DNA of 64,000 bases from assembly GCF_015752155.1 (NCBI RefSeq), contig NZ_JADOVI010000001.1:1-64000 (forward strand), given 5' to 3'. The stretch is from Cryobacterium sp. MP_M3. GTDB taxonomy: Bacteria > Actinomycetota > Actinomycetes > Actinomycetales > Microbacteriaceae. Below, in pieces: positions 36,733 through 40,256 of this stretch. A model generated the notes under the pieces. It did no database searches and had not been told where the DNA came from. It saw only the letters and a list, made by a program, of their open reading frames with translations. Numbering within the stretch: position 1 is the stretch's first letter; every line of letters starts with the position of its first letter. The position numbers and the translations under genes are program-made.

Positions 36733-36766
36733 AACTCACCAACAACCCGCCGGCACCGGTGTGCCC

Positions 36767-36798
36767 CGAACTGGGGTCCTCATTTATGAGGACAAAGG
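36767..36798 (+). promoter_or_regulatory. Conserved leader block A upstream of diguanylate cyclase 1
   Basis: The block begins CGAACTGGGG and includes the perfect hairpin GTCCTCATTTATGAGGAC (36777-36794). A related block at 38505-38538 precedes the second cyclase. It may be a promoter/operator or part of the leader RNA. Confidence 0.5.
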
Positions 36799-36854
36799 GG
36801 TGGTCTTCCCCTACGTTGAAGGTGCACCCCCGGACGAGCTCACAACCGTCGGCC

Positions 36855-36932
36855 GGAGGAAAGGCACACCCGTCGCGAGGCGGGGTCGCAAAGGCACGGG
36901 GCCTCATGGTCAGCCGGCCCACCGGGAACAGG
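36855..36932 (+). ncRNA. c-di-GMP-I (GEMM-I) riboswitch, copy 1
   Basis: The leader shows the GEMM-I order. AAAGGCACACC opens the motif. The hairpin CCCGTC-GCGA-GGCGGG has a GNRA loop and is followed by GTCGCAAAGGCACGGG (family consensus near GACGCAAAGCCACGGG), then CATGGTCAGCCGG and CCACC. GEMM-I aptamers bind cyclic di-GMP and dock the GNRA loop into the second helix. It ends 10 bp before the ATG of a diguanylate cyclase, beside its AGGAA ribosome site, so control of translation is likely. Pairing of the outer stem is less clear than in the consensus. Confidence 0.75.
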
Positions 36933-36942
36933 AACCAGATCG

Positions 36943-38481
36943 ATGAACACAGTGACCGACGGCCCGGCCGTCCGCACGGGTGGGTCGGGGATCTTCACGC
37001 GGCCCACGGGCATTGCGGATGGCGCCCGCTGGCTCTTCCTCTGGCTGGCCGTCGTCTCCGTGGTCCTGGCCCTCCCCGGGGTGCTGCTCACGGCGCGCGG
37101 CGGGCTGCTGGCCCTGGGCCTCGCCGGCGGTGCCGCACTCGTCTTCTCGCTCACCATCGGCTTCGTGCGCCGGCGCATCCTCCTGGGCGTCGACCTGATC
37201 GATGCGGTGGCGATGATGGCAATCGCCCTGGCGTCGCCGAAAGCGTCGGCCGTGGTCATGGTCATGTTCGGCGCCCTCTGGTTCCGCTCGCTGTACGGCT
37301 CCGGCGCGCAGGCCCTGCTGCGGGTCAGCCTGTTCGCCGCAGCCCTCGGCTCGCTCTACGCGGTGTGGCCGCTGCTGCGGGAGGACAGGATCGTGACCGA
37401 CTTCGGCGCGTTCCTCGGCGTTCTCCCCACGATGTTCTTCACCGTGCTGATTGCCCGCCAGCTGGGCAAGTCGCTCGCCGCCCGGGAGCAGAGCATGGGG
37501 CGCGACCGCGTGCTCGCCGCGACAGGCTCCCAACTGCTCGGCGCCACCAGCGCGGCTGCGATCCTGGCCCTGGGCTGGTCTGCCGCGGCCGAGTTCTGCG
37601 CGGCGACCCCCGGGCTCCGGCTCGTCCTGCTCGCACCGGACGGACGCACCCTGCGGGTCGCCGGCACGGCCGGCAACTTCCGGAACGTCCCCGGCCGGCT
37701 CCCCGGTGAGGTCCTGTTCACCCAGCCCGGGACATCCGTCGCCCGCATCCTCGACCCGGCGCCGCTGAACGCCGTGGTCGGCGAGCCGCTGATGTGGGAG
37801 TGCCTCGAATTCGAGGGGCGGGACGAGCGGAGCTGGTTGCTGGTCGGCGCGCCGGGCAGGATCCCCACCGAGGCGGTCCTCTCGGTGCGGGGCCTGGCCG
37901 GCCAGGTCGCGCTCGCCATCCGAAACAGCCACGCGCACGAGAAGCTCTCGACGCAGGCCCGCACCGACTCGCTGACCGGATTGCACAATCGCGCCTCGCT
38001 GCTCGCGGGGCTCTCCGCCGGCCTCGCTCGCGGCGAAGATCCGGCCGGGTTGCAGGTGCTCTTCCTCGACCTGGACGACTTCAAGGACGTGAACGACGAG
38101 CTCGGGCACCGGGCCGGCGACGTCGTGCTGATCGAGGTTGCCGCCAGGCTGCGCGCCTCGGTGCGCCCGACCGACGTCTGCGCGCGGCTCGGAGGCGACG
38201 AATTCGCGGTGCTCCTGCACGGCACCGGCCTGGCCGAGGCCACCGAAATCGCCCAGCGAATCGTCGACGCCGTGGCAGAGCCGTTCCTTGTCGGCGCCGA
38301 GTCGATGCGGGTCGGTGCCAGCATCGGCATCGCAACGCCCGCCGCCGGAGTCGGCATCGAGGAGATCGTGCACCAGGCCGACGTGGCGATGTACGCCGCC
38401 AAGGCGAAGGGCAAGGGCCGGGTCGAGGCGTTCACCCCCGGCCTCCTGACCATGGACCGGTACCACACCATCCACGCCTGA
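36943..38481 (+). CDS. Membrane diguanylate cyclase (GGDEF), paralogue 1
   Basis: The 512-aa protein has about six N-terminal membrane helices (to about residue 180), a GAF-like middle region, and a C-terminal GGDEF domain beginning near TDSLTGLHNRASLL. The active-site motif GGDEF is at 417-421. The product-inhibition I-site RPTD (408-411) is five residues before it, as in regulated enzymes. It makes cyclic di-GMP from two GTP. The ATG at 36943 lies about 9 nt from AGGAA in the riboswitch 3' edge. A paralogue follows 200 bp downstream. The signal sensed by the membrane part is unknown. Confidence 0.93.
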   Translation: MNTVTDGPAVRTGGSGIFTRPTGIADGARWLFLWLAVVSVVLALPGVLLTARGGLLALGLAGGAALVFSLTIGFVRRRILLGVDLIDAVAMMAIALASPKASAVVMVMFGALWFRSLYGSGAQALLRVSLFAAALGSLYAVWPLLREDRIVTDFGAFLGVLPTMFFTVLIARQLGKSLAAREQSMGRDRVLAATGSQLLGATSAAAILALGWSAAAEFCAATPGLRLVLLAPDGRTLRVAGTAGNFRNVPGRLPGEVLFTQPGTSVARILDPAPLNAVVGEPLMWECLEFEGRDERSWLLVGAPGRIPTEAVLSVRGLAGQVALAIRNSHAHEKLSTQARTDSLTGLHNRASLLAGLSAGLARGEDPAGLQVLFLDLDDFKDVNDELGHRAGDVVLIEVAARLRASVRPTDVCARLGGDEFAVLLHGTGLAEATEIAQRIVDAVAEPFLVGAESMRVGASIGIATPAAGVGIEEIVHQADVAMYAAKAKGKGRVEAFTPGLLTMDRYHTIHA

Positions 38482-38504
38482 CCCGGCACCGCCGACCCGG
38501 CGCC

Positions 38505-38538
38505 TCGAACTGGGGCCCCTTCTTGTGAGGACAGAGGC
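38505..38538 (+). promoter_or_regulatory. Conserved leader block A upstream of diguanylate cyclase 2
   Basis: TCGAACTGGGG and TGTGAGGACAGAGG match the block at 36767-36798, though the hairpin is weaker here. It lies about 145 bp before the ATG. Confidence 0.45.
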
Positions 38539-38597
38539 CCGGAAATGGTCGTCCGTCGCATAGCGTGTGGACTAAAAGCTGATGGTCTGCCAATTCA

Positions 38598-38668
38598 GCG
38601 CAAGGGCACACCCGCCGGAAGCCGGAGTCGCACGGCACTGACCCATCAGGTCGGCCGGTCAACCAGGA
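38598..38668 (+). ncRNA. c-di-GMP-I-like riboswitch, copy 2 (degenerate)
   Basis: It aligns with copy 1 through AGGGCACACCCG, a hairpin with the GNRA loop GGAA, GTCGCA, GGCAC, CATCAGGTC, GCCGG and ACC-GGAA. The GNRA loop changes from GCGA to GGAA, but the P2 stem has a mismatch and GCAAAG is now GCACGG. Binding of c-di-GMP is therefore less sure. Its 3' edge contains the GGAAGG ribosome site of the second cyclase. Confidence 0.55.
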
Positions 38669-38681
38669 AGGGCAGCGCGCC

Positions 38682-40256
38682 ATGAACCAGGCAACGAGCC
38701 AGCCGCAGGCAACGAGCCAGACGCAGGCCGAATCCATGGGCGTTCGGACGCTGTTCACCCGCCCGGAGGGCGTCTCGGCGCGCGCGCGATGGTTGTTCCT
38801 GTGGCTCGTCGTGGCGTCGACGGCGCTCATCCTGCCGCCGATCTTTCTCACCGCGAACGGGGGGCTTCGCGTGCTCGCCCTCGTCTCGACCGCCGGCTTG
38901 TATGCCCTCTGGGTATTCGGCTACCTGCGCCGGCACTCACAGGTGTGGACCTCGGTGGCGGATGCCGTCGGCATGGTGGGATTCGCCGTGGCCTGCCCGG
39001 ACTCCCACGCGATCATGCCCATCCTGTTCAGCGCCGTGTGGTTCCGATCCCTGGTCGGGACCGTCTGGCAGACCGTGGCCCGAGGCGTCATCTACGCGTC
39101 GGCAATCGGGGCGATCATCGCCCTGTGGCCGGTCTTCCACCCGGGCCCGGACCGGCTCGAGCCCTTGTCCTTCGCAGGTTCCCTGCCGACGTTGTTCGTG
39201 ACCATGTTCATCGTGTGGATGCTAGGACAGACCCTGATCAAGCGGGACGAGAGTATTGCCCGGGACAGGATCCTGGCCTCGACCGGCTCCCGGTTTCTCG
39301 GCACTACCGACAGCGCGGTGATCCGCGCGCTCGCCTGGAGCGTTACGGAACAATTCTGCGCAGTGACGCCTGGCCTGGTGGTGCTCCAGGTTCAGTCGAC
39401 AGACGACGGCCTGAGTATAACTGGAGCAGCTGGTCACGTCGGAGTTCTGCCCCTGGTGCTGCCGAGCGTGGTGTTGACCACCCCGACGGACGGCACCTCC
39501 GCGCGTATCCTCGACCCGAGACCGTTGGACGTCGTTGTGGGCGCGTCACTGCGGTGGGATTGCCTGAGCCTCGGCCTGAGCAGTGGGGGCGGCTGGCTGC
39601 TCGTCGGCGCTCCGAGGTCCGTTCCCTCAGAGGCCGTCTTGTCCATCCGCGGCCTGATCGGGCAGGTTTCCCTCGCCATGGGGAACAGCCGGGCGCACCA
39701 CGAACTCGCGACCCAGGCTCGCACTGATTCCCTCACGGGCCTCGACAATCGGGGCTCTTTCACGCGGCAGGTCTCGAGGGGGATCGGCGAGACCGTCAGC
39801 CGTGCTGGAGTGCGAGTGCTCTTCCTCGACCTCGACGATTTCAAGAACGTCAACGACGAGCTGGGACACCGGGCAGGCGACGAACTTCTGGTCGTCGTCG
39901 GCTCGCGACTGCGACGGGGCACTCGCGAGACCGACGTCTGCGCCCGACTCGGCGGGGATGAATTCGCGGTTCTCCTGAAGGACGCGAGCGATCAGGATGC
40001 CATCGAGCTCGCCGAGCGTCTCGTCGCGATGATCGCCGAACCCTTCGTCTTCGACGGACACCCGATCGCGGTCGGCGCGAGCGTCGGGATCTCGTCGGCG
40101 GCGGCGGCCAACGACCTCGAGGACCTGTTGCACCAGGCGGATGTCGCCATGTATGCCGCCAAGGCCGGCGGAAAAGGCCGGGTGGTGGTTTTCGAGCCCG
40201 GGTTACTGCAGCTCGGCCGGACGCTGGGCCGGTCTGGCGCGGCACTCGGCGACTAG
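38682..40256 (+). CDS. Membrane diguanylate cyclase (GGDEF), paralogue 2
   Basis: The 524-aa protein has the same plan as its neighbour and clear similarity throughout: FTRPEGVSARARWLFLWLVVAS, membrane helices to about residue 185, a GAF-like region with GWLLVGAPRSVPSEAVLSIRGL, then GGDEF. The motif is at 424-428 and the I-site RETD at 415-418. A 17-residue Gln/Thr/Ser-rich N-terminus is extra. It makes cyclic di-GMP. The ATG at 38682 is about 10 nt from GGAAGG. The pair arose by tandem duplication that took the leader with it. Confidence 0.93.
   Translation: MNQATSQPQATSQTQAESMGVRTLFTRPEGVSARARWLFLWLVVASTALILPPIFLTANGGLRVLALVSTAGLYALWVFGYLRRHSQVWTSVADAVGMVGFAVACPDSHAIMPILFSAVWFRSLVGTVWQTVARGVIYASAIGAIIALWPVFHPGPDRLEPLSFAGSLPTLFVTMFIVWMLGQTLIKRDESIARDRILASTGSRFLGTTDSAVIRALAWSVTEQFCAVTPGLVVLQVQSTDDGLSITGAAGHVGVLPLVLPSVVLTTPTDGTSARILDPRPLDVVVGASLRWDCLSLGLSSGGGWLLVGAPRSVPSEAVLSIRGLIGQVSLAMGNSRAHHELATQARTDSLTGLDNRGSFTRQVSRGIGETVSRAGVRVLFLDLDDFKNVNDELGHRAGDELLVVVGSRLRRGTRETDVCARLGGDEFAVLLKDASDQDAIELAERLVAMIAEPFVFDGHPIAVGASVGISSAAAANDLEDLLHQADVAMYAAKAGGKGRVVVFEPGLLQLGRTLGRSGAALGD

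Follow-up and report, generated by a model that had tools for sequence, protein, structure and literature searches.

A predicted c-di-GMP-I riboswitch and its degenerate homologue precede two tandem diguanylate cyclase genes in Cryobacterium sp. MP_M3

The first 64,000 nucleotides (nt) of contig NZ_JADOVI010000001.1 of Cryobacterium sp. MP_M3 (assembly GCF_015752155.1), here called the window, contain two tandem diguanylate cyclase genes, P1 and P2, each with a full GGDEF domain. An initial annotation, made from the sequence alone, placed a riboswitch for cyclic di-guanosine monophosphate (c-di-GMP) of the c-di-GMP-I type (GEMM-I) in front of each gene and proposed that c-di-GMP could limit its own synthesis twice, on translation and on the enzyme. 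Does this locus hold two working RNA sensors for the product of its two enzymes? We found an intact aptamer, copy 1, ahead of P1 and a homologous, degenerate one, copy 2, ahead of P2; that copy 1 is intact and copy 2 not working is the reading we favour, with a probability of about 0.72. P1 and P2 denote the cyclase genes and their proteins, and the RNA helices are written helix P1, helix P2 and helix P3. The central features are:

36853-36926, forward strand: copy 1, intact c-di-GMP-I aptamer (RF01051 44.5 bits; genus model R1 75.5 bits; contact bases present)
36930-36934, forward strand: AGGAA, Shine-Dalgarno sequence of P1, from the sequence
36943-38481, forward strand: P1, diguanylate cyclase of 512 amino acids, RxxD at 408-411, GGDEF (PF00990 144.1 bits)
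38595-38667, forward strand: copy 2, degenerate c-di-GMP-I aptamer (R1 34.0 bits; RF01051 16.7 bits; 7 of 20 pairs broken)
38665-38672, forward strand: AGGAAGGG, Shine-Dalgarno sequence of P2, from the sequence
38682-40256, forward strand: P2, diguanylate cyclase of 524 amino acids, RxxD at 415-418, GGDEF (PF00990 142.4 bits)

The two proteins share 48% identity, and the N-terminus of P1 appears hydrophobic by eye. The inhibitory RxxD motif (I-site) annotated five residues before GGDEF was confirmed in both (RPTD in P1, RETD in P2), and both have complete active-site residues including the guanine-site Asn and Asp. In Hypr enzymes a serine replaces this Asp, according to a section of PMC6456294. 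P1, P2 and 29 of the 30 GGDEF loci read in G000, G048 and G055 carry Asp (39 matches, nine of them without a locus; the residue of L211 was unclear). Because this position holds Asp and not the Hypr serine, both P1 and P2 should make c-di-GMP.

GEMM, for which the original papers are reportedly Sudarsan 2008, Smith 2009 and Weinberg 2017, was recognized in the two leaders from shared elements. These elements, AGG..CACACCCG, GTCGCA, GGCAC, GGTC(A/G)GCCGG and ACC, are indeed present in both sequences, as are the GNRA loops, GCGA in copy 1 and GGAA in copy 2. Each leader also ends at the ribosome site of its GGDEF gene, with the ATG 16 nt past the end of copy 1, AGGAA lying between, and 14 nt past copy 2 (18 nt if counted from where the shorter RF01051 match ends). 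Covariance scoring with RF01051 (cut-off 35 bits) separated the two: copy 1 passed with 44.5 bits, whereas copy 2 failed with 16.7 bits (E 1.73, genome-wide). Of the two riboswitches first proposed, the one before P1 stands as a standard GEMM-I element and the other as a homologue below the cut-off.

As a second measure we used the genus itself. In 57 Cryobacterium genomes there were 49 RF01051 matches, one of them (G013:C76, 31 bits) below the cut-off, and 20 of the 57 genomes had a match above it. Alignment A1 comprises 46 of the 49 matches (L016, L028 and L046 were dropped as repeats) and excludes copy 2; removing the five P1-locus aptamers left the 41 aptamers of alignment A2, on which the genus model R1 was built. 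Neighbouring gene names were checked by Pfam. Copy 1, whose locus R1 had thus not seen, scored 75.5 bits. It carries G20, C44, A47 and C92 (alignment columns 11, 35, 38 and 73), C44 being the interhelical base in Vc2 numbering. G20, A47 and C92 contact the ligand in Vc2, and the spacing of G20, C44 and A47 (columns 11, 35 and 38) is the same as that of G12, C36 and A39 in Vc1, both according to a section of PMC4744006. When cut out alone, copy 1 was predicted to fold as GEMM.

Copy 1 resembles RF01051 in sequence, in its two-hairpin plan, in its GNRA loop and in its contact bases, and its position directly ahead of a c-di-GMP turnover gene is a known placement of GEMM, as passages of a review put it (PMC12564702). 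It differs in its Cryobacterium form, GGCACAC..GTCGCAAAGGCAC, with a short helix P3. The family c-di-GMP-I-GGC (RF03167) gave 45.9 bits, under its cut-off of 59. GEMM-Ib riboswitches have the same fold, but an A at position 20 makes them prefer cyclic GMP-AMP (cGAMP), and both copies have G there. P1 and P2 also carry Asp where Hypr enzymes carry serine (section of PMC6456294). These features support copy 1 as a c-di-GMP-I riboswitch in front of an I-site cyclase, and it would accordingly be expected among elements that bind c-di-GMP.

What, then, is copy 2? The stretch stays below every Rfam cut-off, including that of the sister family RF03168 (18.8 bits, E 0.73 for 2 kb and all families). 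With R1 it reached 34.0 bits (E 4.4e-8 in the window, 2.7e-6 in the genome), and the next-best match in the window after copies 1 and 2 had 11.0 bits. Two further R1 matches, G037:C90 (30.4 bits) and G020:C44 (23.2 bits), were taken as false positives inside an open reading frame, that of G037:C90 being a glyoxalase/dioxygenase by Pfam; with a coding stretch reaching 30.4 bits, the E-values of R1 at about that score overstate significance. Since copy 2 combines 34.0 bits with the position where a duplicate should sit, it is a homologue of the c-di-GMP-I aptamers.

Its degeneration is visible at several levels. Copy 2 differs at 3 of the 25 columns invariant among the 46 genus aptamers and at 5 of the 42 lettered columns (at least 90% conserved), where each of the 46, left out in turn, differs at 0-2. 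It has 7 of 20 pairs broken (other genus aptamers 0-5), and its predicted minimum-energy fold is not GEMM, which comes out 18.5 kcal/mol less stable (others 0-14). The base that follows A47 (column 39, A48 in Vc2 numbering) is an A in all 46 genus aptamers but altered or missing in copy 2, whose AA joining segment has also lost a base. The segment described as drifting from GCAAAG to GCACGG has thus changed, but by alignment the change runs from GCAAAGGCAC to either GCA-CGGCAC or GCAC-GGCAC, with one base deleted and an A replaced by C. Similarly, helix P2 is mispaired as annotated, yet with two mismatches (C.C and C.A) in place of one, and helix P3 is broken too. With this damage, which distinguishes copy 2 from RF01051 proper, the initial suggestion that the copies differ in sensitivity or ligand is not supported. 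As far as alignment and predicted folds go, copy 2 is most simply read as a relic in decay that has lost its function.

The history of the locus is that of a duplicated unit, which extends upstream of the aptamers:

36763-36798, forward strand: upstream repeat of unit 1 (direct repeat D3), with the 18-nt inverted repeat GTCCTCATTTATGAGGAC at 36776-36793
36812-36817, forward strand: TACGTT, possible -10 element of unit 1, by eye
36827-36833, forward strand: CCCCCGG, 5' strand of an alternative hairpin that takes CCGG 36853-36856 away from helix P1 in predicted folds
38502-38537, forward strand: upstream repeat of unit 2 (direct repeat D3), inverted repeat decayed
38561-38566, forward strand: TAGCGT, possible -10 element of unit 2, by eye only

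The distance between the two copies is 1739 nt for the upstream repeats, 1742 nt for the 5' halves of the aptamers and 1760 nt for the main coding repeat, and the unit of promoter element, aptamer and enzyme was duplicated as a whole, long ago. The upstream repeat of unit 1 is 78% identical to that of unit 2, is conserved before the P1 orthologues and may be an operator or promoter element; in the unit 2 repeat the inverted-repeat pattern found no match at 3 mismatches. With up to 2 mismatches allowed, a pattern related to the inverted repeat has 5 genomic matches, vs 0 for the pattern read backwards. TACGTT has the same letters in the P1 orthologues examined, and a sigma-70 scan did not report it.

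Four relatives (G021, G048, G013 and G003) have a short-chain dehydrogenase gene, a P1 orthologue (82-95% identity) and lacI, with no second cyclase between, and all four keep the aptamer, which brings the intact aptamers at the P1 locus to five genomes. The closest P1 homologue among the matches listed is that of Cryobacterium sp. HLT2-28 (95.5% identity). G030 has the same order of dehydrogenase, cyclase and lacI with a cyclase 62% identical to P1, and G040 a dehydrogenase and a 64% identical cyclase, lacI not being within the stretch fetched; neither locus gave an aptamer match on the strand of the cyclase gene at E up to 1, and therefore aptamer loss occurs in this family. By eye, the G040 locus retains an aptamer remnant, and G030 (L058) has a possible -10 element directly before the cyclase ATG, making a leaderless transcript likely. 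Outside the genus, strong aptamers stand right before a homologous cyclase in two metagenome-assembled genomes (L106, 82.0 bits; L098, 74.7 bits).

For P2, no full-length relative above 51% identity was present in the 57 genus genomes; a search of 398 family genomes, taken from a larger set, gave matches at E up to 1e-120 in five genomes, all Cryobacterium; and among the best 80 of 462 relatives in GTDB, a scan that may omit the records nearest the window, full-length ones reached 51%, with one partial GGDEF match (L107) at 53%. The second unit, copy 2 plus P2, was not found in the other genomes searched in these genus, family and GTDB sets. In a tree of 18 sequences, drawn from the 39 of a larger tree, P2 grouped with the P1 clade and G043 (97/98), yet outside the P1 clade, as a long branch meeting the long branch of G043. 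Topology tests on the 18 sequences rejected a recent duplication with P1 and P2 as sister pair (p-AU 4.5e-88) as well as P2 joined to the five P1 orthologues (p 0.005), whereas P2 beside the wider seven-member P1 clade was not rejected (0.146). The rates of nonsynonymous (dN) and synonymous (dS) substitution were 0.46 and 0.97 between P1 and P2, and 0.11 and 0.44 between P1 and its G048 orthologue; GC content at third codon positions was 0.84 in P2 vs 0.93 in P1. Because of its tree position, its lower third-position GC content and the high dN, P2 is taken as an old or acquired, fast-evolving duplicate of the whole unit.

How would copy 1 act on P1? No intrinsic terminator was found between the aptamers and their genes; the two that were found lie upstream of the aptamers and are at chance level (shuffles mean 1.4, standard deviation 1.3). 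Because no terminator intervenes, we infer control at translation by default. In predicted folds CCGG 36853-36856 pairs either with 36827-36833 or with CCGG 36922-36925, closing helix P1, and this alternative pairing could possibly be the switch. In the favoured reading an ancestral unit of promoter element, c-di-GMP-I aptamer and I-site cyclase was duplicated; in unit 1 the intact aptamer would sense c-di-GMP and control P1, with initiation of translation as the most likely level, and high c-di-GMP would most likely lower P1 output on top of I-site inhibition. Unit 2 would have kept the cyclase motifs and the I-site while its aptamer decayed, and with that decay P2 is probably no longer under c-di-GMP control through its leader. 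The feedback at two levels that the initial annotation foresaw for both genes is thus plausible for P1, since copy 1 precedes a cyclase with an I-site, and unsupported for P2; feedback by RNA plus I-site for P1 and by I-site alone for P2 is the likeliest arrangement.

Several observations weigh against this picture. The fold energy of copy 1 is unremarkable (z -1.22; 23 of 200 shuffles equally good), helix P1 is missing from its minimum-energy fold in a 141-nt context, and even with the aptamer locked the pair probability of helix P1 is 0 to 0.58 in longer context. Locking the aptamer brought no consistent change in predicted Shine-Dalgarno accessibility in copy 1 and four orthologues, which leaves the annotated control on translation as expectation. 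Across 32 non-redundant elements out of 50, an upstream flank paired no better with its own Shine-Dalgarno region than with those of others (mean -14.1 vs -14.2 kcal/mol; 1037 of 2000 permutations gave an equally low value), a comparison to which a pairing shared by every element would be invisible. With no signal over permuted pairs, an element-specific pairing as shared OFF platform was rejected. As both results were negative, we infer the OFF mechanism rather than see it. The pairing of aptamer and cyclase is not general either, because only 3 of 34 further homologous-cyclase loci scored above 13 bits for an aptamer (some of the 34 are the same place twice and some are cut near the gene start). 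On the side of copy 2, G20, C44, A47, the interhelical G, C92 and the GNRA loop are all retained, and a 31-nt stretch of its 5' half still matches copy 1 at 81% identity. As this is more identity than neutral drift should leave at a P1-P2 dS near 1, selection maintained copy 2 for much of its past or does so still. Finally, the well-scoring L021 and L022, and also L038, L040, L044 and L013, fail isolated minimum-energy folding, so that the fold argument against copy 2 is weak alone.

The retained contact bases and the 34.0 bits with R1 would also suit two working c-di-GMP riboswitches of different affinities that give graded feedback on the two cyclases, the more so as a re-registered helix P3 (CGG/CCG plus CUGACC/GGUCGG) can form in copy 2. 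We regard this as improbable: the base after A47 is changed, a joining base is gone, helix P2 has its two mismatches and RF01051 gives only 16.7 bits, while the most generous GEMM-like fold with the new register reaches -15.6 kcal/mol against a minimum of -25.2 and would alter the height of the interhelical contact. Less probable still is that copy 2 was refashioned to sense a different ligand or to serve as an RNA element of different function. Its ACGG recurs in two degenerate elements, G024:C13:30688 and G040:C85:5928, where intact aptamers have AAAG (45 of 46) or AAAA (1 of 46); however, both are damaged elsewhere too and neither stands before a cyclase (one precedes a chemotaxis receptor gene), P2 has the usual substrate residues, and no copy 2 orthologue by which conservation could be judged was found in the genomes searched. 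That all three ACGG elements represent one remodelled GEMM form, altered in affinity or ligand, is, if anything, a slightly longer shot; if true, the duplicated cyclase would have left one feedback and gained another.

A different question is the direction of copy 1, on which an intact copy 1 and a decayed copy 2 leave room for either sign. An ON switch, by which c-di-GMP raises its own cyclase, has a precedent in the class I switch Vc2, described as ON in passages of PMC12564702, and the platform comparisons above gave no OFF platform. The I-site of P1 argues, as a prior, for limiting the product, and from it we lean towards OFF at somewhat better than even odds, with ON the unlikelier direction by a clear step.

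Some features of the genus aptamers stand apart from the locus. Many precede an open reading frame of 50-67 codons that begins with MSFP (MCFP in L031) and starts 18-20 nt downstream (L001 at 1593-1742, L002, L015-L017, L021, L022, L028-L031, L037, L046 and L048). One group of these frames ends near WFGxxPAV, two of them and a 137-amino-acid relative had no Pfam match at E up to 1, and in G048:C14, a locus of this type, a Cache-HAMP receptor gene follows. Two of the 46 aptamers have A at the G20 position (L008 1501-1575 and L017 1501-1574); Hypr cyclases behind such A20-type elements in G048 and G055 were considered and rejected, as the GGDEF loci read, among them the one behind L008, showed no Hypr-type serine. 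The degenerate aptamer of G024:C13 (L171 3689-3761), a second case of decay, lies 17 nt before its chemotaxis receptor gene (MCPsignal, Pfam), and G051 (L044 3484-3557) has an intact aptamer before a receptor gene resembling that one. In G020:C33 (L040 3112-4631) an intact aptamer is followed by a cyclase split over two frames and apparently broken.

GEMM upstream of certain diguanylate cyclase and phosphodiesterase genes is already known, as passages of the review state (PMC12564702). Tandem class I aptamers within one leader are common, with 347 doublets according to a section of PMC9481103; the present locus shares with them two class I elements near each other, but those doublets and triplets sit in one leader, whereas here a gene lies between the copies, each has its own gene, and they are 1742 nt apart. 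Literature searches, aimed once at the genus by name and there covering 20 of 63 papers, found no report of a Cryobacterium riboswitch. The cyclase with an intact sensor beside a duplicate with a decayed one is a new instance, not a new kind. It offers a natural pair in one cell, two enzymes of the same type of which one has an intact c-di-GMP RNA sensor and the other does not, with both I-sites kept; if this holds up, one could measure directly what RNA feedback adds to allosteric feedback. Riboswitch decay after gene duplication would be on view here, with the orthologous locus of the relatives providing intact and lost stages.

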